From positions 5,236,540 through 5,282,489 of the forward strand of contig CP070782.1 in the NCBI GenBank assembly GCA_020346325.1: a stretch of 45,950 nucleotides of DNA, read 5' to 3'. A program made the translations under genes and the position numbers. The DNA comes from Phycisphaerales bacterium. GTDB lineage: Bacteria; Planctomycetota; Phycisphaerae; Sedimentisphaerales; Anaerobacaceae. Shown here piece by piece: positions 15,637-45,659 of this stretch (its first letter is position 1; each line of letters starts with the position of its first letter). Under the pieces are notes generated by a model. It was not told where the DNA came from. It was given only the letters and a program-made list of their open reading frames with translations, and searched no databases.

Positions 15637-18027
15637 ATGCAGAAACGAAGCGCTGTCGTGCTTGTCGTTTGTGCGATGAGTCTGTCACTGTTAGGCTATG
15701 GACGCTGTGCTGCGGCCTCAGACCGCCGGTGCAGGCTCTGGTACGAGCAGCCGGCCCAGACGTGGGACGAAGCGCTACCTCTGGGCAACGGACGGCTCGG
15801 CGCCATGGTTTTCGGCACGGCACCGAAGGAGCAGTTGTCGCTCAACGAAGAGAGCCTCTGGGCCGGCGCGCCGCTGGATGTCTACCCGGATGAGTTCGCG
15901 AAACATCTCAAAGAACTCCAGCGGTTCGTACTGGCCGGCAATATCGGCGAAGCGCGGCAACTAGGTTTGGAGAAGCTGACGAAGTCGCCCACATCGTTTC
16001 GGTCCTATGAGCCCTTGGGTGATCTCTGGATCGAGATGGACCACGGTGACGACGTGACGGACTACGAGCGCGAATTGGATCTGGAGACGGGCCTGGCGGG
16101 CGTTCGCTATCGCGTCGCTGGCGTTCAGTTCTGGCGGGAGCTCTTCATCTCGGCCGTCGATAACGTTCTGGTCGTGCGGCTTCGCGCCGACCGACCAGGC
16201 AATCTAAACGCCACGATTCGCCTGACCCGCCAGAAAGACACACGGGTGACGACGTTGGGGACTCGCCTGTGCCTGGACGGCCAGATCGTCGATGTGCCCG
16301 CTCCGAAGGGATACGACGACAACCCGGGCGGTTCCGGCCCCGGCGGGGCTCATATGAGGTTCGCCGGACGGCTGGCGGTACAGACTATGGTCGGACACGT
16401 GGAGGCAGCCGGCAATGCTCTCCGGATCGTCATGGCCGATGAGGCGGTCCTGCTGTTCACAGCGGCGACGGACTTCAGTCTGAGGAAGATGGATTTCGAC
16501 CGCTCGCTCGATCCAGGCCGGCGGGCTGATGCCATTATCGAGAGGGCGTTGCTGAAGACCTGGGACCAGTTGCGACGCGATCATATTGCCGAGCACAGCG
16601 CGTACTTCAATCGGGTGAACCTCGACTTGGGAGGAGAGCCTGAGAAAGAGCCACTGCCGACGGACGTGCGCCTGGCAGCAGTGAAGGAAGGGGGCGCCGA
16701 TGACGGGCTCGTTGCGCTGTACTTCCAGTACGGTCGTTATCTGCTGATGTCCAGCTCGCGCGCTCCCGGTCGTTTGCCGGCCAATCTCCAGGGAATCTGG
16801 AGCCATCGCATGTGGGCGCCGTGGGAGGCCGACTACCATCTCAACATCAACCTGCAGATGAATTATTGGCCGGCCGATCTGTGCAACCTCTCGGAGACGA
16901 TCGAGCCCCTGGTAGAGTGGTTCCAGCGCGTCACCGAAAAGGGCAGGGCGTCCGCTCGAAAGCTCTACGATGCGCGGGGCTGGGTCGCCTTCACGACGGT
17001 CAACCTGTTCGGGCGCACGACGCCCGGCGGCTCGACGGAGGGATCGCAATTCCAGAATGGGGTGCTGGACCCGCTGGCCGGCGCGTGGATGGCCCTGACG
17101 TTGTGGCGGCACTACGAGTTCACAGGCGATCGCGCATTCTTGGCCGGTCGGGCCTATCCCATCCTCAAAGGGGCCAGCGAGTTCCTGCTCGACTATCTCG
17201 TGACCGATGCCGACGGGATGCTCGTGATCGTTCCGTCGACCTCTCCGGAGAATGCCTACCTTCATCCCGAGACCGGAGAGGCCGTGCGGATCTCGCGCGC
17301 CTCGACCTATCACACCTCGATCGTTCGCGCCGTCTTCGAGGCTGTCATAGCGGCGGGGGAAATACTCGGCCGTGACCCCGAGTATCGCGACCAATTGCGG
17401 GCGGCTCTGGCGAAGTTGCCGGCGCTGAAGATCGGTCGCGACGGGACCATTCAGGAGTGGATTGAGGACTACGAGGAGCGCGAACCGGGCCATCGCCACA
17501 TGTCGCATCTGATCGGACTGCATCCGTTCTCTTTGGTCACGGCGCAAGATCGCGACCTGTTCACGGCGGCCCGGAGGACGATCGAGCGGCGCCTAAGCCA
17601 CGGCGGGGGCCATACCGGTTGGAGCCGGGCGTGGATCGTCAATTTCTACGCCCGTCTGCTCGATGGGGACACTGCCTACGAGCATGTCACGCTCCTGCTG
17701 CGCAAGAGCACGCAAGCGAATCTGTTCGATACGCACCCGCCTTTCCAGATCGACGGCAACTTCGGCGGTTGTGCGGGAATCGCGGAGATGCTCCTGCAAA
17801 GTCACGCCGGCACGGTACATTTGCTGCCGGCCCTGCCGAAGGCCTGGCCGCGCGGGTCAGTCAGCGGCCTGCGCGCACGTGGCGGCTTCGTGGTCGATGT
17901 TTCCTGGAGGGATGGAGAAGTGACATCGTATCGCATCGAGGCCACCCGTCCGGCTACGCTCCGGCTGCGCCTCGCAGATCGGGTGATCGAGCGACCAATG
18001 GCGCCGGGGGAGGTCTTCAGTGGGTAG
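15637..18027 (+). CDS. GH95 alpha-L-fucosidase/galactosidase, secreted
   Basis: A 796-residue glycoside hydrolase family 95 protein. A signal peptide (RSAVVLVVCAMSLSLLGYG) directs export. The N-terminal beta domain opens with LWYEQPAQTWDEALPLGNGR and LSLNEESLWAG, both typical. The (alpha/alpha)6 barrel shows NINLQMNYWPADLCNL, HRHMSHLIGLHPF and FQIDGNFGGCAGIAEMLLQS, which contain the conserved Asn/Asp/His of the inverting active site. GH95 enzymes release alpha-1,2-fucose or alpha-galactose from glycans. The ATG at 15637 is chosen because it directly begins the signal peptide. Two sulfatases in the window fit breakdown of sulfated fucans or similar algal glycans. Confidence 0.93.
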   Translation: MQKRSAVVLVVCAMSLSLLGYGRCAAASDRRCRLWYEQPAQTWDEALPLGNGRLGAMVFGTAPKEQLSLNEESLWAGAPLDVYPDEFAKHLKELQRFVLAGNIGEARQLGLEKLTKSPTSFRSYEPLGDLWIEMDHGDDVTDYERELDLETGLAGVRYRVAGVQFWRELFISAVDNVLVVRLRADRPGNLNATIRLTRQKDTRVTTLGTRLCLDGQIVDVPAPKGYDDNPGGSGPGGAHMRFAGRLAVQTMVGHVEAAGNALRIVMADEAVLLFTAATDFSLRKMDFDRSLDPGRRADAIIERALLKTWDQLRRDHIAEHSAYFNRVNLDLGGEPEKEPLPTDVRLAAVKEGGADDGLVALYFQYGRYLLMSSSRAPGRLPANLQGIWSHRMWAPWEADYHLNINLQMNYWPADLCNLSETIEPLVEWFQRVTEKGRASARKLYDARGWVAFTTVNLFGRTTPGGSTEGSQFQNGVLDPLAGAWMALTLWRHYEFTGDRAFLAGRAYPILKGASEFLLDYLVTDADGMLVIVPSTSPENAYLHPETGEAVRISRASTYHTSIVRAVFEAVIAAGEILGRDPEYRDQLRAALAKLPALKIGRDGTIQEWIEDYEEREPGHRHMSHLIGLHPFSLVTAQDRDLFTAARRTIERRLSHGGGHTGWSRAWIVNFYARLLDGDTAYEHVTLLLRKSTQANLFDTHPPFQIDGNFGGCAGIAEMLLQSHAGTVHLLPALPKAWPRGSVSGLRARGGFVVDVSWRDGEVTSYRIEATRPATLRLRLADRVIERPMAPGEVFSG

Positions 18028-18051
18028 TCATCGCCTCCATCAGGACATCGT

Positions 18052-18167
18052 GGGTGGCAGCCTCAAGCGGCCGCTTGGGGATGGCGAACGAGACGGTTCG
18101 TTGGGGCGCAGAAGATTCCTCATGCCTCGAACCATCCCCAGGTCCTGCGGACTTGAAGTTGCCACCC
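18052..18167. repeat. Inverted-repeat element (REP-like pair) behind the fucosidase
   Basis: The left arm is at 18052-18084 and the right arm, on the other strand, at 18132-18167. Read on the minus strand the right arm shares 33 of 36 positions (counted by eye) with 40237-40272, including AGTCCGCAGGACCTGGGGAT. The left arm has the same frame GGGTGG..GCCTCAAG....GGGGATGG with a different, self-complementary centre (AGCGGCCGCT). The paired arms can form a long hairpin about 116 nt in length. No protein is needed to explain it. It resembles REP/BIME-type dispersed repeats. Confidence 0.7.
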
Positions 18168-18234
18168 AATGTTCTCAATCAATGCCTGAGCGTTTGAACA
18201 GACACACTGATTAAGTGACAAGGAGTTGTGGTTC

Positions 18235-18528
18235 ATGTCGGTGTTTGAAGCGGTTATGCTAATTTGTTTCGGAGTCAGTTGGCCCGTATCCATCGCCAAA
18301 AGCCTGCGGACCAGGGTGGTCTGCGGCAAGAGCCCGTTGTTCCTGGCGATCGTGTGTCTGGGATACGTCTGTGGGGTCATCCACAAGGCCGTCTACAGCT
18401 ACGACTGGATCATCATCCTGTATACGATGAACATGCTTTTGGTCGCGGCGGATCTTTTCCTGTATTTCCGGTATCGGCCGTCGTGCCAGGCGACCGGGAG
18501 GTTCGCGCGCGTCGAGCGGGCGGCGTAA
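18235..18528 (+). CDS. Small membrane protein, SemiSWEET/PQ-loop-like
   Basis: A 97-residue protein with three predicted transmembrane segments: residues 3-20 (FEAVMLICFGVSWPVSI), 35-51 (PLFLAIVCLGYVCGVIH) and 58-77 (WIIILYTMNMLLVAADLFLY). The SWPVSIAKSLRT segment resembles the PQ-loop and the size fits SemiSWEET-type half-transporters, though the match is loose. AAGGAG (18220-18225) lies 9 nt before the ATG. It precedes the EamA transporter gene by 24 nt and may be cotranscribed with it. Substrate unknown. Confidence 0.65.
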   Translation: MSVFEAVMLICFGVSWPVSIAKSLRTRVVCGKSPLFLAIVCLGYVCGVIHKAVYSYDWIIILYTMNMLLVAADLFLYFRYRPSCQATGRFARVERAA

Positions 18529-34541: not shown

Positions 34542-35255
34542 TTATTCTCCTGACAGCAAATCGATATGGTGCGACGAGTCGTTGCTTGCGGGGCCGGGGC
34601 GCATGGGCGGGGACGTCTGGGGGCTGCGGACCCGGCGTTTCGCTGATCGCAAGGATTCGTCCAGGGCATGGTCTGGGACGAACGGTTGCACGGTATACGT
34701 GGCTTGCGGCGGCAGATAAGACCGGATCTCTTCCACGTCGTCTTCGGCGAGCAAGGCCGGCACGAAGGTGGTGCGGAATTCGCACGGCACGTCGCTCTCG
34801 ACCAGCAGTGCCACGCTGTCGCGGATGTCCTGGGTACACGCATCCGTACCGGTCAGTCGCGCGTATTTGTGAAAGGGCGCCTTGATATCCATCGCGACGC
34901 AATCGAGCAAACGGCGGTTCAGCAATTCGCGCAACACGGCGGGCCGACTGCCGTTGGTGTCCAGCTTGACCTTGAGCTTCCGCTGCTTGATGCGATCCGC
35001 AAAATCCACGACATTGTCCTGCAGCGTCGGTTCTCCACCGCTGATCACCACGGCATCGAGTAGGCTCCGGCGCGCCCGCAAGGCCTCCAGGATGTCACGC
35101 TCATCCATCGAACCTTCGGGCGGCGTGCCGGTCGCCAGCAGCGCGGCATTGTGGCAGAACGGACAGCGAAAGTTGCAGCCCTGCGCAAAGACGATAGCCG
35201 CGATGTGCCCAGGATAGTCCGTCAATGTCACTGGTTGAAAGCCACCGATGTTCAC
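34542..35255 (-). CDS. nrdG: Anaerobic ribonucleoside-triphosphate reductase activating protein
   Basis: A 237-residue radical SAM enzyme. CNFRCPFC has cluster ligands at Cys27, Cys31 and Cys34, and ISGGEPTLQ is the SAM-binding GGE motif. The start GGFQPVTLTDYPG is typical of the TIGR02495 group. It generates the glycyl radical on NrdD. Start is a GTG overlapping the nrdD stop by 4 nt (GTGA). The protein is longer than E. coli NrdG (154 residues) by a C-terminal segment (SLRSAKRRVRSPQTSPP), which is low-complexity and may be unstructured. Confidence 0.93.
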   Translation of the reverse strand: MNIGGFQPVTLTDYPGHIAAIVFAQGCNFRCPFCHNAALLATGTPPEGSMDERDILEALRARRSLLDAVVISGGEPTLQDNVVDFADRIKQRKLKVKLDTNGSRPAVLRELLNRRLLDCVAMDIKAPFHKYARLTGTDACTQDIRDSVALLVESDVPCEFRTTFVPALLAEDDVEEIRSYLPPQATYTVQPFVPDHALDESLRSAKRRVRSPQTSPPMRPGPASNDSSHHIDLLSGE

Positions 35256-37411
35256 AACGCCTCCTCAACCTTGAAGTATCGACGTCGTTCGAACTCCGCT
35301 CGTTTGCCGTCGTTCCACTGGTCCACCGGTCGCAGATAACCCACGACGCGCGCGTACACTTCCGTTTTGGCCTGGCAATGCGGACACTGCTCCTGCCGGC
35401 CCGGCAAATACCCATGATCGGGGCAGATGCTGAAGACCGGGGAAATCGTGAAGTAAGGTAGATGGTAGTTGCTGCAGACCCTGCGAACGAAACGCTTCAA
35501 GGCCTCCGGGTCGGGTGCCGCTTCGCCCAGGTTGATGTGCAGCACCGTACCTCCGGTGTATTTGGCCTGGAGGTCGTCTTGGAGCTCGAGGACCTGCCAG
35601 ATGTCACTGGTGTAGTCAATCGGCAGTTGGGTCGAGTTGGAATAGAACGGTGTCTCCGTGGCCTCGGCCGCCCGGGCGTTGGCGCAGGTGATCTGAGGGT
35701 ACTTGCGGCGGTCGAGTTGGGCGAGCCGGTAGGTGGTGCCCTCGGCCGGCGTCGCCTCGAGATTGTACATGTTGCCCGTCTCTTGCTGGAACTCCACGAG
35801 GCGATTCCGCACATGGTTGAGCGTGCGCGACGCGAAGGCGCGGCCTGCCTCGGTCCCGATATCCTGGCCGAACAAATTCAGGCAGGCCTCATTCATGCCC
35901 ACCAATCCGATCGTGGAGAAGTGATTGTGCCAGTACTGGTCGTAATGTTCCTTGACGCTCCGCAGATAGTACCGCGTGTACGGATATAGATTCCGGTTGG
36001 TAAACCGTTCGAGCAGTTTGCGCTTGGTTTCCAGACTGGTTCGGGCCATTTCCATCAGCTTGTCGAGTCTCCGGACAAAATCATTCTCGTCTGTCGCTAC
36101 GTGGCCCAGGCGGGGCAGGTTCATTGTGACGACGCCAATCGATCCGGTCAGGGGGTTGGCGCCGAAGAGGCCGCCGCCCCGTTTTTCCAGGTGACGCACG
36201 TCCAGTCGCAGTCGACAGCACATCGAGCGTGCGTCGGCTGGGGACATGTCGCTGTTGACGAAGTTGGCGAAATAGGGGATGCCGTATCGTGCGGTCACCT
36301 CCCAGAGCCCCTGTAGTTGCGGCGCGTCCCAATCGAAGTCCGCGGAGATATTGTATGTCGGGATGGGGAACGTGAACACTCTGTTCTTCGCGTCGCCCTC
36401 GGCCATGACGTCGAGAAAGGCGCGATTGAACATGTGCATCTCCTCGGTGAACTGGCCGTACGTCCTGTCCTGCAACTGGCCTCCGATGACCACGGGTTGG
36501 TCGGCCAGCAAGGGGGGTGCCTCCAGATCGAGCGTGATATTGGTAAACGGCGTCTGAAAACCGACGCGGGTGGGAATGTTGACGTTGAAGACGAATTCCT
36601 GGAGGGCCTGGCGGACCTCTTTTTCGCTGAGGTTGTCGTAATGGATGAAGGGGGCCAGGAGGGTATCGACGTTGGAGAAAGCCTGGGCGCCGGCGGCCTC
36701 GCCTTGCAGCGTGTAGAAGAAGTTGACGATCTGGCCCAGCGCCGTGCGGAAGTGCTTGGCCGGGACGCTCTCAGCCTTGCCCGCGACGCCTCGGAAGCCG
36801 CTGCGCAGCAGATCGTGCAGGTCCCAGCCCACACAGTAAACGCTGAGGATGCCGAGGTCATGAATGTGGAAGTCGCCGGACAGGTGCGCCTCACGGATAT
36901 CGGCCGGGTAGATCTTGTTGAGCCAGTAGGTCTTGCTGATTTCACTGGAAATATAGTTGTTCAGGCCCTGGAGCGAATAGGACATGTTGCTGTTTTCTTG
37001 GACCTGCCAGTCCAGTCGGTCGAGATAGTTGTCGATCAGGTCGACGTCGGCCTTCTGCACCATCTCACGCAGGCGGGCGTGCTGGTCGCGATAGAGGATG
37101 TAGGCCTTGGCCGTCTTTTTGAATGGTGAGGTGAGCAACACCTCTTCGACGAGGTCCTGCAACTGCTCGACCTCCGGCTGCGTCGTCATGAACGTCATCT
37201 GGGCCAGGTTCAGTACGCGCAGGGCCAGCTGCTGGGCGGTATCGGCTCCGAATTCGTCGGTGGCCTTGCCGGCTTTGAGGATGGCTGCCTGGATCTTTGC
37301 GAAATCGAACCCGACCAGTCGTCCGTCTCGCTTGCGGACCTGGAAGAAGCGGCGTGACGTTGTCTGCGGTGTTCGGGTGCCGGATCGTTGCTCATCTGTC
37401 AGTGGGGTCAT
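35252..37411 (-). CDS. nrdD: Anaerobic (class III) ribonucleoside-triphosphate reductase
   Basis: A 719-residue glycyl-radical enzyme. The N terminus (FFQVRKRDGRLVGFDFAKIQ) is an ATP-cone regulatory domain. The core includes EISKTYWLNKIYPADIREAH, GDFHIHDLGILSVYCVGWDL and EEMHMFNRAFLDVMAEGDAK. The C-terminal zinc site is formed by SICPDHGYL and EQCPHC, and the radical Gly lies in YARVVGYLRP (Gly691). The ATG at 37411 has GGAAGGAG 7 nt upstream. It makes dNTPs without oxygen and without cobalamin. A B12 riboswitch begins about 260 nt upstream on the same strand. Confidence 0.96.
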   Translation of the reverse strand: MTPLTDEQRSGTRTPQTTSRRFFQVRKRDGRLVGFDFAKIQAAILKAGKATDEFGADTAQQLALRVLNLAQMTFMTTQPEVEQLQDLVEEVLLTSPFKKTAKAYILYRDQHARLREMVQKADVDLIDNYLDRLDWQVQENSNMSYSLQGLNNYISSEISKTYWLNKIYPADIREAHLSGDFHIHDLGILSVYCVGWDLHDLLRSGFRGVAGKAESVPAKHFRTALGQIVNFFYTLQGEAAGAQAFSNVDTLLAPFIHYDNLSEKEVRQALQEFVFNVNIPTRVGFQTPFTNITLDLEAPPLLADQPVVIGGQLQDRTYGQFTEEMHMFNRAFLDVMAEGDAKNRVFTFPIPTYNISADFDWDAPQLQGLWEVTARYGIPYFANFVNSDMSPADARSMCCRLRLDVRHLEKRGGGLFGANPLTGSIGVVTMNLPRLGHVATDENDFVRRLDKLMEMARTSLETKRKLLERFTNRNLYPYTRYYLRSVKEHYDQYWHNHFSTIGLVGMNEACLNLFGQDIGTEAGRAFASRTLNHVRNRLVEFQQETGNMYNLEATPAEGTTYRLAQLDRRKYPQITCANARAAEATETPFYSNSTQLPIDYTSDIWQVLELQDDLQAKYTGGTVLHINLGEAAPDPEALKRFVRRVCSNYHLPYFTISPVFSICPDHGYLPGRQEQCPHCQAKTEVYARVVGYLRPVDQWNDGKRAEFERRRYFKVEEAL

Positions 37412-37673
37412 CGTTACACTCCTTCCCAAAACCGTAGGGCGTTCCATCGAAACCATGGGGAACGGATGGGCGGGCAAGCGCGGCTGAGGTGCATGAAACC
37501 GTAGGTACGCGCGCACCCGGCATCCGAACGAGCGACAATCCGAGACAGGATATCACCACAGGCAGGGATACAACCACCGACAGGGAAAACCTGTGGACCG
37601 GCGGCCGTACGATGCAATGGCCTTTCCCGCGAAAGCTAGATTGCCGTTCACCACGCGATTTGCGTGGGTCGCT
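37412..37673 (-). promoter_or_regulatory. Leader between B12 aptamer and nrdD
   Basis: About 260 nt separate the aptamer from the nrdD ATG. A perfect stem-loop (CCACGC/GCGTGG, 37651-37667) directly follows the aptamer and may be the expression platform. No U-run follows it, so a transcription terminator is not evident; control of translation is hard to place so far from the ribosome site. No convincing leader peptide is seen. Confidence 0.45.
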
Positions 37674-37853
37674 GGCAGGTCTTCGGACTTGCGGGCGTCT
37701 CAGAGCCGAGCTCCGAACTCCTACTGGCCATCGCTTCCCGTCCTCGTCGGACAGTGCTTGATGATGGCGTTCGTTCCCACTTACCGCTGCGCGGCAGTTC
37801 CGGATTCACACCGGATTCCCTCTTGGTCGATGTCCCAAACAGCAGGACAAACC
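37674..37853 (-). ncRNA. Cobalamin (adenosylcobalamin-type) riboswitch
   Basis: Read on the minus strand the region has the ordered conserved blocks of RF00174-type aptamers: GGT near the 5' end, AGAGGGAATCCGGTGTGAAT, CCGGAACTGCCGCGCAGCGG followed by TAAG, GCACTG, GGGAAG, and the 3' block CCGAAGACCTGCC. The length is about 180 nt, normal for the class. It follows a promoter by a few nucleotides and leads to nrdD. Binding of cobalamin would normally shut the downstream genes off. Recognition is by conserved sequence, not by computed folding. Confidence 0.93.
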
Positions 37854-37866
37854 AACGACGGCCCCA

Positions 37867-37895
37867 ACTCTACGCACGTCGGCCGCACGCGTCAA
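37867..37895 (-). promoter_or_regulatory. Promoter of the nrdD-nrdG-metE-dcd operon
   Basis: On the minus strand TTGACG (37890-37895), a 17-nt spacer and TAGAGT (37867-37872) form a good sigma70-type promoter. The expected start near 37860 lies just before the first conserved aptamer block. Confidence 0.7.
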
Positions 37896-39232: not shown

Positions 39233-40213
39233 ATGGCGCCGCTAGAATGCCAGGAATGCAAAGCGCCGCTCTCCAAGTCGGCGGAGAACTGCCCGCTGTG
39301 TGGCGCGTCTGTCCGGGACCGTAAGGCCGGCAAGCGCAAGCCGTGGTACGAGCGGACATCCGTCACTTTGTGCGTGGCGGCCGGGCTGCTCGTTGTCGCG
39401 CTGGGATTCGTCCATATCGTCATTGGCGTCGAGTCGCCTTTCAGGCTGCCGGTGGATATCGTGCGCCGCGAATCCTTCGGGTACCGCGAGACCTTTATCG
39501 ATGCCCGCGCTATCGCGGCACTGCCGTATACTGCGGCAAAACTCAAGTATCCGCTTAGTTGCGAAGTCCTTCAACGCCGGGGCTACCTGCCGTCGGGTCG
39601 CCATTTCGAGGCTCGGACGGTGGTCAGGCAGATGCAGGACATCGGGCGCTGGCAGGCCGAGTTTACTCGAACTCTCGGCCCGTCCGAGCCGCCTTGGGAG
39701 GAGCGTCTGCAGACGGGGATTGTCGAGGAGCAGGCAGACCCGGAGAGCGCTCAGGCGGACAACGCGCGAGGTATCGCCTCGGCCCGAAACGGCGAGTATC
39801 AGGCGGCGCTGGCGGCATTCAGTCGGGCGATTCGCAAGGCCCCGGCCTATGCCGAAGCGTTTCACAATCGCGCCCTGGTCTACATCGCCCTTGGCAACCT
39901 GGGGCAGGGGGCGGCCGACTTCGATAAAGTCGTGGAGATCCGACCGGGGTACATCGAAGGCTATGTCGAGCAGGGCCGCCTCTACCTCAAGACGGGTCAG
40001 CAGGAAGACGCTGTGGCGGTCTTTTCGCGGGCGATTGAAGTTGATTCGACCTGCGCCGAAGCGTACCTGGGTCGGGCCCTGGCCTGCTATGTCCAGGGCC
40101 AATACGACCGTGCCTGGCAGGACGTGCGACAACTCGAGTATCTGGGTACGCCCGCGCCGGCTGGCTTCGTCGTCGCGCTAAGCCACGCTTCGGGCCGCGA
40201 CCCCGGGACGTAA
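39233..40213 (+). CDS. Zinc-ribbon, membrane-anchored TPR protein
   Basis: A 326-residue protein. The N terminus is a zinc ribbon (CQEC at 6-9, CPLC at 20-23), followed by a basic stretch and one transmembrane segment (residues 44-64, VTLCVAAGLLVVALGFVHIV). The region after 180 has three or four tetratricopeptide repeats: NARGIASARNGEYQAALAAF, AFHNRALVYIALGNLGQGAA, GYVEQGRLYLKTGQQEDAVA and AYLGRALACYVQGQYDRAWQ. TPRs mediate protein contacts. The combination suggests a membrane-linked scaffold; partner unknown. AGAGGA lies about 7 nt before the ATG. Confidence 0.8.
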   Translation: MAPLECQECKAPLSKSAENCPLCGASVRDRKAGKRKPWYERTSVTLCVAAGLLVVALGFVHIVIGVESPFRLPVDIVRRESFGYRETFIDARAIAALPYTAAKLKYPLSCEVLQRRGYLPSGRHFEARTVVRQMQDIGRWQAEFTRTLGPSEPPWEERLQTGIVEEQADPESAQADNARGIASARNGEYQAALAAFSRAIRKAPAYAEAFHNRALVYIALGNLGQGAADFDKVVEIRPGYIEGYVEQGRLYLKTGQQEDAVAVFSRAIEVDSTCAEAYLGRALACYVQGQYDRAWQDVRQLEYLGTPAPAGFVVALSHASGRDPGT

Positions 40214-40236: not shown

Positions 40237-40272
40237 GGGTGGTAGCCTCAAGTCCGCAGGACCTGGGGATGG
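40237..40272 (+). repeat. Copy of the REP-like repeat
   Basis: Shares 33 of 36 positions with the reverse complement of 18132-18167 (counted by eye), including AGTCCGCAGGACCTGGGGAT. It lies between the TPR and HlyD-like genes, about 22 kb from the first element and single here rather than paired. Confidence 0.8.
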
Positions 40273-40378: not shown

Positions 40379-41551
40379 ATGAAGCGAGAGCGAGGTATTC
40401 GAATACTGGTAGTCACGGTCGCGTTGGCCCAATTGGTACTGGCATCGCAGGGTCAGTCGGGCCAGATGATTCGGGAGGCGGGTAGACTCCAGCCGGTGGA
40501 GTCTCACATGATTCGCAGCCAGGTGCCCCGGCCCACGGTCGTGCTCTACGTGGCACCAGAAGGCAAAGCCGTTGAGAGGGGCGATCTGCTCGTCGAGTTG
40601 GATAGCTCCGTGTGGGACGAGGAAAAGGGGCAGCTGAAGGTTCGATTCGTCGCGGCCGTGGCGCGGCTACGGAAGGCCGAAGAGGCGCTACCGCTGGCGA
40701 AGGAGGAAAGCCGCGCCGCCGTGGAACTGGCCGAGCAGGGCTTTCGCCTGGCGAAGCTGGCGCTGGAGGTGTATGTTGGCGGCGAGTATCCGCAGCAAGT
40801 CGCCGAGGCCGAGGCCGCGGTATCCGACGCCGAGGCACAATACGTCGAAGCGGGCGAGCGTCTGGCGCGGCTGAAGGCCTCGGAGGATGAGACCGATACC
40901 GATCGTGTCCGTCAGACGGAAGCCGCCAGAGCACAGGCAGCGTCGCAAATGAAAGTGGCGAAGAATCGACTCCGTCTTCTCACCGATGTCATGCATGAAT
41001 TCCGCAAGGCAAGTTTGCAGCTGGTTGTTATGGAGAAGGAATTCGCTCTCATGCGGGCCCGGAACGAGGCCAAGCGGGCGGAACGCGAGGCCGAAAGCGC
41101 TCTGGAAATCGCTCAGGCCCGGCTTGCGATGGAGGAGAACAGGCGGGAGGCTCTCGAGGAGACAATCCACGCCTGCAAGCTCCACGCGCCCAGTGCCGGG
41201 ACCGTGCAGTACGTGCGCGCGTCCTGGGGTGACAGCGCCACGACCAGGCCGATCGAACCCGGCAGCATCGTGCACAAGCAGGAGCCGCTCATCCAGGTCG
41301 TGGAGACGGAACGGTTCAAGCTGGCGGTGCTGGTCGATTTGCAGGTGGCCCAGCAAGTGAAGACCGGCCGGGAGGTGAACGTTCGCGTCGATGCGATCGC
41401 GAATGAAACGTTCACCGGCCGCGTCGCCGAGATGCGCGTCGTACCCGACCCCGCCTCCGGTGCCGCCCAGGGTCTCTTGAACGTGATCATCGAAAACCCA
41501 GCCAAACGATTCCGCCCCGGCATGACGGCTCGCGTCGAATTCGAGTTATGA
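40379..41551 (+). CDS. HlyD-like periplasmic adaptor protein
   Basis: A 390-residue protein with an N-terminal signal/anchor (IRILVVTVALAQLVLASQG). A split biotinyl-lipoyl domain surrounds a long coiled coil: GKAVERGDLLVELDSSVWDE, then helices rich in Ala, Glu and Arg (roughly 80-265), then LHAPSAGTVQYVRASWG and a beta-barrel domain (FKLAVLVDLQVAQQVKTGRE, FRPGMTARVEFEL). It would link an inner-membrane pump to the outer membrane. No pump or outer-membrane factor gene is next to it, so the partner is elsewhere. GGGAGG lies 6-7 nt before the ATG. Confidence 0.85.
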   Translation: MKRERGIRILVVTVALAQLVLASQGQSGQMIREAGRLQPVESHMIRSQVPRPTVVLYVAPEGKAVERGDLLVELDSSVWDEEKGQLKVRFVAAVARLRKAEEALPLAKEESRAAVELAEQGFRLAKLALEVYVGGEYPQQVAEAEAAVSDAEAQYVEAGERLARLKASEDETDTDRVRQTEAARAQAASQMKVAKNRLRLLTDVMHEFRKASLQLVVMEKEFALMRARNEAKRAEREAESALEIAQARLAMEENRREALEETIHACKLHAPSAGTVQYVRASWGDSATTRPIEPGSIVHKQEPLIQVVETERFKLAVLVDLQVAQQVKTGREVNVRVDAIANETFTGRVAEMRVVPDPASGAAQGLLNVIIENPAKRFRPGMTARVEFEL

Positions 41552-45470: not shown

Positions 45471-45544
<74 letters not shown>

Positions 45545-45586: not shown

Positions 45587-45659
45587 GGGGACGTAGCTCA
45601 ATTGGGAGAGCGCCGGCTTTGCAAGCCGGAGGTTGTCGGTTCGAGCCCGATCGTCTCCA
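45587..45659 (+). tRNA. tRNA-Ala (TGC)
   Basis: A 73-nt cloverleaf: acceptor GGGGACG with CGTCTCC (one G-U pair), anticodon loop TTTGCAA giving TGC, T arm TCGG-TTCGAG type, discriminator A. CCA is not encoded. Ile-Ala is the classic spacer pair of ribosomal operons. Confidence 0.97.

Follow-up and report, generated by a model that had tools for sequence, protein, structure and literature searches.

Does the short inverted repeat at positions 18052–18167 represent a local peculiarity of one intergenic region, or does it belong to a dispersed family with an enzyme of its own? The window, by which we mean the whole 45,950-nucleotide stretch of DNA from an uncultured Phycisphaerales bacterium that was analysed, sits within one 6.50 Mb contig, and the repeat was followed through the host genome and its relatives. 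The results below make it very probable that these repeats are REPs, many of them arranged as REPINs, of a family in one Planctomycetota order, and that they represent the ends of a RAYT-type (TnpA_REP) Y1 HUH transposase unit, copied in non-autonomous form.

Repeat Copies in the Window

The features on which the analysis is centred are as follows, in window coordinates.

18052..18167, no strand: probable REPIN, a head-to-head REP pair of 116 bp
18053..18084, + strand: left REP arm, a 32-nt match with centre AAGCGGCCGCTT; pattern match G000:C1:5254592-5254623; covariance model E 9.6e-8
18085..18131, no strand: spacer separating the arms of the REPIN
18132..18166, − strand: right REP arm, a 35-nt match with centre AAGTCCGCAGGACCT; covariance model E 1.3e-10
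40238..40272, + strand: single REP copy, found by pattern match; covariance model E 7.3e-11

The inverted pair and the further copy at 40237–40272 are present as an earlier note on this DNA had described them. Inspection by eye confirmed both the agreement at 33 of 36 positions between the minus-strand right arm and the copy at 40237, and the common outer frame of the left arm around a different centre. The arms are arranged head-to-head with their feet on the outer sides, and the outer inverted repeat of the pair (18051–18067 and 18152–18168) is 17 nt long and 88% complementary. A search with a 35-nt consensus, allowing up to 3 mismatches, gives two matches in the window, one at the right arm and the other at 40238; 100 dinucleotide-preserving shuffles of the window contain none. 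The pair is located between a GH95 glycoside hydrolase gene (stop at 18027) and a short ORF (18226–18528). The single copy occurs 25 bp past the stop of a TPR-repeat gene (39233–40213), ahead of an HlyD-family gene (40379–41551), and both sites begin ∼25 bp beyond a stop codon. No Rfam family is assigned to the repeats when the window is searched at gathering thresholds. Elsewhere, the window contains a cobalamin riboswitch (105 bits; 37657–37871, minus strand) just upstream of a same-strand gene for a class III (NRDD) anaerobic ribonucleotide reductase (35252–37516), and two neighbouring tRNA genes on the plus strand (45471–45544 and 45587–45659).

The stems of the right arm and of the 40238 copy each contain an A·C mismatch, and both copies fold poorly on their own as ssDNA, with z values of −0.48 and −0.56, respectively, against −1.96 to −3.94 for the other three copies in the same comparison. 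Because of the mismatch and the poor solo folding, these two copies look partly decayed. The lowest-energy ssDNA fold of the pair is a long arm-to-arm hairpin (−29.0) rather than two hairpins (−18.7), the left arm having been cut by hand one base short for this comparison. In a genome of the same genus (G122), the genes that flank the pair abut; since the whole ∼200 bp intergenic stretch is missing there, the comparison reveals a change at the site and not a precise insertion. The orthologous gene pair needed to recognise an empty site for the 40238 copy was not found in the other five genomes of the genus.

Copies across the Host Genome

Three sequence patterns gave 5, 10, and 10 matches in the host genome, with overlapping hit lists, and the reversed-pattern control of each gave none. 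A covariance model built from 14 copies returns at least 48 matches on the host contig at E ≤ 10, and at least 41 of these have E < 0.01; the 41 copies are a lower bound because 150 of 4754 first-look candidates were scored. The family therefore extends well beyond the copies in the window. Only 4 of 42 host cores (the 41 model copies and one RAYT-flanking copy) lie mostly in predicted coding sequence, versus 5672 of 7736 control positions (73%; Fisher p 7e-18), the coding calls being those of our own codon-usage gene caller, trained on the window. With respect to the neighbouring genes, 22 of the 42 are found in tandem, 11 in convergent, and 7 in divergent contexts, with 2 unclassed.

All nine compact host pairs (<100 bp apart) are head-to-head, and many other host copies are single. 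The densest spot formed by the 41 copies at E < 0.01 consists of one RAYT unit and an extra copy 452 bp off. The comparison with BIME elements made in the earlier note calls for some refinement: the units resemble REPIN pairs, and no larger mosaic cluster is seen among these 41 copies, a set from which weak copies may be missing.

A Conserved Foot and Hairpin

To describe the element, we aligned 138 distinct copies from 100 of at least 119 stretches that carry the pattern. In this alignment, which was fitted to the covariance model and so favours structure, 98.9% of 1588 cells in a 13-pair helix are paired. Seven pairs show changes on both sides, with 98 double-changed cells as compared with 22.6 in shuffles, and sliding the partners by 1–3 columns leaves at most 66% of cells paired. 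A C-G to G-C exchange at columns 15/72 is seen in 36 sequences and is evident in the host’s own copies too; CGTC is found in one stem class only, where it is paired at these columns. The outer-stem classes, for example GCCTC..GGGGA, GCGTC..GGCGA, and GCGGC..GCCGA, substantiate the proposal that the family comprises several subfamilies.

The foot is GGGTGGCA. Among 192 distinct copies, the two G residues ahead of GTGGCA have frequencies of 97% and 84%, GTGGCA itself having been required by the finder behind this count; the foot is likewise present in most of the host model matches, for which GTGGCA was not required. The foot tetranucleotide is GTGG, not GTAG, and it stands three nt from the stem. 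Directly past the tail, the commonest dinucleotide is CT (44 copies), followed by TC (35) and TT (29). The family thus combines an imperfect palindrome of 20–40 bp with a conserved stem, a GTAG-like tetranucleotide 5′ of that stem in the form of GTGG, and many dispersed, mainly intergenic copies, which are the features by which REPs are recognised; two inverted REPs with a short spacer, the arrangement that defines a REPIN, are present as well.

These hairpins could also be host RNA elements placed shortly past genes, as transcript terminators or 3′ mRNA stabilisers, with the association with RAYT being secondary. The ∼25 bp distance of the window copies from stop codons would suit such a role, as would the T-G pair conserved at columns 16/71 in 133 of 138 sequences, a wobble pair that would function in RNA too; the available part of PMC3733652 reads G-T pairs as hinting at a function in RNA. 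However, 7 of the 42 host copies lie between divergent genes, and the flank base frequencies reveal no T-run after the hairpin. Triloops occur in 57 of 106 distinct hairpins, and 38 of the 57 are C(GNA)G; the accessible portion of PMC4686876 describes this loop in DNA mini-hairpins of very high stability. Such loops point to DNA as the working form of the hairpin, although they are no proof of it. As described below, the same hairpins also bound RAYT genes and track the RAYT tree. We consider an RNA element very unlikely, and treat the repeats in what follows as REPs connected with a transposase.

RAYT Genes in the Host

The RAYT/Y1 transposase to which the earlier note had directed attention is encoded in the host, in a gene bounded by the repeat. 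There are two full-length RAYT genes (G000:C1:6193345-6193908 and 1633933-1634493), each between inverted repeat copies. Aligned over 650 columns, these units share 77% identity, and the similarity starts and ends at GGGTGG..CCACCC. A further unit-end remnant is evident as a 64-bp match. Because the same element bounds the transposase gene on both sides, the repeat is most probably a very small mobile passenger of the transposase.

The RAYT protein at locus L023 scores 97.7 bits against the NCBIfam model REP_Tyr_transpos (NF047646; cut-off 80), which all 21 aligned homologues match at E ≤ 0.001. In the PDB, the sequence match is E. coli TnpA_REP (4er8, E 1.3e-4), which was solved together with a REP hairpin, and the predicted fold (pLDDT 90) is nearest to the same structure, with Z 16.9 and rmsd 2.2 over 144 aligned residues. 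Among 21 sequences, H67, H69, W123, Y145, N149, and P150 of the HUH, WQ, and YxxNP motifs are invariant, and Q124 is nearly so. The combination of [EDN]HxH, WQ, mostly YIHxNP, and a length of ∼188 aa falls between rows 2.4, 2.6, and 2.7 of Table 1 in PMC6006769, as far as that article was available. Motifs, family model, fold, and a REP-flanked gene, the features of a RAYT or class 2 (TnpA_REP) enzyme, are all found. A second Y1 gene in the host (L022:1471-2247) was considered as the partner and rejected; it scores 60.3 bits, under the REP_Tyr_transpos cut-off of 80, and no repeat adjoins it.

Another possibility is that the repeats stem from an ordinary IS200-like insertion sequence, as its ends and as copies with internal deletions (MITEs), and not from a REP-type system. 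The RAYT unit is indeed multi-copy in the host, with its two full-length genes, a fragment, and the 64-bp remnant; its ends are sharp, and the IS200 family model, too, recognises 16 of the 21 RAYTs at E ≤ 0.001. Against this, the L023 protein reaches just 20.2 bits with the IS200 model (cut-off 55), and it carries YxxNP, which is a class 2 (TnpA_REP) signature in the consulted part of PMC6006769. The two host units are just 77% identical, whereas IS200 copies are listed at 99.4% in a table of that same part, and single and paired copies far outnumber the enzyme genes. An IS200-like origin is, in our estimation, most improbable, and the reading as REPs of a RAYT is retained.

The intact host RAYTs have GCGTC-type ends, and the window copies are of the GCCTC type; for this reason, the window copies may be orphans in the host genome. 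A third, broken RAYT is represented by a 50-residue 5′ fragment behind a GCCTC-type repeat (L227:2820-3085; G000:C1:834820-835084), where the repeat was read by eye and its model match is weak (E 1.2). The fragment is nearest to a GCCTC-type RAYT of genome G086 (27 of 38 residues identical, part of the stretch being masked).

Association of Repeat and RAYT across RAYT Loci

At the RAYT loci, the covariance model gives 67 matches at E ≤ 0.1 in 94,215 bases. Of 30 RAYT loci, 26 have a repeat match at E ≤ 0.1, a number that falls to 12 at E ≤ 0.001. At 31 other Y1 loci (30 of 53 Y1 matches, and L022), no repeat match is found in 88,568 bases at the cut-off of E ≤ 0.1. The two-sided arrangement, which recurs in relatives and has a plus copy to the left and a minus copy to the right, both within 200 bp, is present at 11 of 25 RAYT loci and was not found at 14, the 25 being the 30 loci without L198–L202, whose matches are partial, fragmentary, or distant. 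In the flanking copies of relatives, the foot GGGTGGCA is mostly kept while the stem varies. In three related RAYT units (L180, L181, and L183), one end carries a CATCC-type stem that is longer and closed by a T-rich loop, and the other copy nearby is ordinary.

When the stem classes are placed on the RAYT tree, 8 changes account for 9 classes in 20 genes, which is the least possible; shuffling gives a mean of 14.2, and in 0 of 200 shuffles is the number as low as 8. The classes for this count were assigned by eye, some from weak matches (E up to 0.09), and the tree holds 20 of the 25 loci, with L192, L194, and L197 lacking a match and L179 and L195 omitted despite their matches. Counted singly, CCTC, CGTC, and CCTTT, which are three of the six classes listed, require two changes each.

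The earlier reading of the repeat as REP-like is upheld by its dispersed and mostly intergenic copies, its foot and hairpin, its head-to-head pairs, and its position at the bounds of a RAYT gene. Taken together, foot, stem, covariation, pair geometry, intergenic bias, repeat-bounded RAYT genes, sharp unit ends, and the clustering of stem types on the RAYT tree argue for a REP/REPIN-RAYT system.

Unequal Arms in Compact Pairs

The different centres of the two arms were at first taken as a difference between subfamilies. The compact pairs argue otherwise. Among 41 distinct compact pairs from relatives, collected with a strict pair finder (GTGGCA foot, at least 7 pairs, identical pairs counted once), the outer-stem class is common to both arms in 35, with 16.1 expected, and the arms always differ in length: equal lengths occur in 0 of 41, with 8.3 expected (p 1e-4), although the pairs are not fully independent since several come from the same genome. 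Close neighbours in the relatives are head-to-head in 51 of 54 cases. The host’s nine compact pairs all have unequal arms as well, as judged by model match length; since the host is one contig, it is unlikely that this results from palindromes having collapsed in a short-read assembly. Pairs that span a RAYT gene, in contrast, have equal arms in 5 of 11 cases (Fisher p 2e-4 against the compact pairs). In compact pairs, therefore, the same ends with changed centres come close to a rule.

In 45 pairs, the long hairpin is favoured over the two-hairpin form by a median of 12.4 kcal/mol, and by 32.1 kcal/mol once the arms are equalised in silico. The two-hairpin form is the better one in 4 real and 0 equalised pairs; this contrast is partly true by construction, as a perfect inverted repeat always pairs best. 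On the basis of these data we tentatively put forward, at somewhat less than even chances, a two-part rule. The outer stem would match between the arms and follow the RAYT lineage, while the inner stems would have to differ, with equal arms tolerated only across the transposase gene and the difference being functionally required. Unequal arms would weaken the long arm-to-arm hairpin and thereby let each arm fold alone and be read by the RAYT; alternatively, they would spare the pair from deletion by replication and palindrome nucleases. In the accessible part of PMC3116915, it is suggested that REPINs are hidden from the RAYT in the long hairpin and exposed to it in the two-hairpin form. According to the available part of PMC3733652, where SbcCD is also mentioned, most REP families show heterodimers, for which no explanation is obvious. 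If true, the two-part rule would answer why REP pairs are mostly heterodimers, and the unequal arms offer a comparative handle on that question.

Distribution in the Order and Phylum

With at most 42 candidates scored per genome, the repeat is detected at E ≤ 0.001 in 49 of 148 genomes of the order, which belong to groups f1 (37), f5 (6), and f7 (6). A RAYT protein match is present in 62 of the 148, and in 27 at E ≤ 1e-30, the threshold for a close RAYT, which was set with the results of the RAYT search already known. The repeat is present in 15 of 27 genomes with a close RAYT versus 34 of 121 without one (p 0.012), and 20 or more repeat matches occur in 11 of 27 versus 12 of 121 (p 0.0003). 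The repeat and a close RAYT co-occur only moderately. Of the 49 genomes with the repeat, 34 have no RAYT detected at E ≤ 1e-30, as have 12 of the 23 that are rich in it, most of these being draft assemblies; no repeat is detected at E ≤ 0.001 in 12 of the 27 genomes with a close RAYT. Either persistence without the enzyme is common, therefore, or the enzyme was missed in many of the repeat-bearing genomes.

In the phylum, 2 of 392 genomes match at E ≤ 1e-5, both within the order; divergent families elsewhere would be missed in this survey because 16 candidates were scored per genome. The exact pattern is found in at least 119 stretches of GTDB contigs. Among the matches listed, 118 are labelled Planctomycetota, as Sedimentisphaerales, Phycisphaerae, Phycisphaerales, or the phylum alone, and one is labelled Verrucomicrobia. 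Judging from these labels and from coinciding genomes, the order is probably Sedimentisphaerales. That sole other label belongs to Verrucomicrobia bacterium RA.bin27 (L153), which carries the repeat and has no RAYT match at E ≤ 0.001 in its genome; a mislabelled genome, a mixed bin, or transfer would each account for it.

Proposed Mechanism

Binding, cleavage, and movement, as well as the assignment of a RAYT to its copies, are steps that we infer from these features. When the DNA is single-stranded, for example in the lagging-strand template, each arm would fold into a hairpin. A gene elsewhere in the genome would supply the RAYT, which would read the GTGG foot and the outer stem, cut beside the hairpin using its single tyrosine, and move or copy the pair to another site. 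Intergenic copies would be those retained. Since several stem classes have RAYTs of their own (9 classes in 20 genes), the question of which hairpin part is read by a RAYT comes within reach of a test.

Comparison with Known Systems

The family is a REP/REPIN family with its own RAYT, new but otherwise ordinary and of a known kind. Its presence in three families of one planctomycete order enlarges the REP/RAYT record of a phylum with few REPs described; REPs were already reported in Planctomycetes, R. baltica included, in the available text of PMC3733652. A literature search combining REP, RAYT, and REPIN with planctomycete names, from which subscription papers were mostly absent, returned no paper that apparently describes the family.

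One close likeness is to the GTAG-type REPs and REPtrons of E. coli, Stenotrophomonas, and Marinomonas, as presented in the accessible parts of PMC3733652 and PMC8266576. These share the foot tetranucleotide 5′ of the hairpin, the intergenic and mostly head-to-head placement, the RAYT gene flanked by the same repeats, and a stem mismatch near the base, and E. coli TnpA_REP has the fold nearest to that predicted for the planctomycete enzyme. In the biochemical model within the consulted part of PMC8266576, foot and hairpin are combined with a cut at CT. The planctomycete foot GGGTGGCA, however, has GTGG in place of GTAG, a tetranucleotide that most O. terrae GTAG-20 elements also have in the available part of PMC3733652. 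The planctomycete host further differs in having the RAYT unit twice, and the compact pairs in being always unequal-armed in the sets examined.

The CGTC-tagged REPs share head-to-head pairs, and one stem class here starts with GCGTC. In the account of them available from PMC3733652, however, the tag is unpaired and has no known transposase, whereas here CGTC is paired in one stem class and a RAYT is associated; the family was therefore not assigned to that group. Class 3 TnpA_Y1 enzymes of Planctomycetes, Acidobacteria, and Proteobacteria (PMC6006769, in part) likewise include planctomycete Y1 enzymes flanked by genome-repeated hairpins, but with a Y----Q signature and a CnGA foot where the RAYT described here has YxxNP and GTGG. 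Finally, the REPINs of Pseudomonas fluorescens, as far as described in the available part of PMC3116915, are also inverted, intergenic REP pairs with a short spacer that form one long hairpin or two, and the planctomycete host differs from them in having fewer copies (at least 41) and arms with unlike inner stems.
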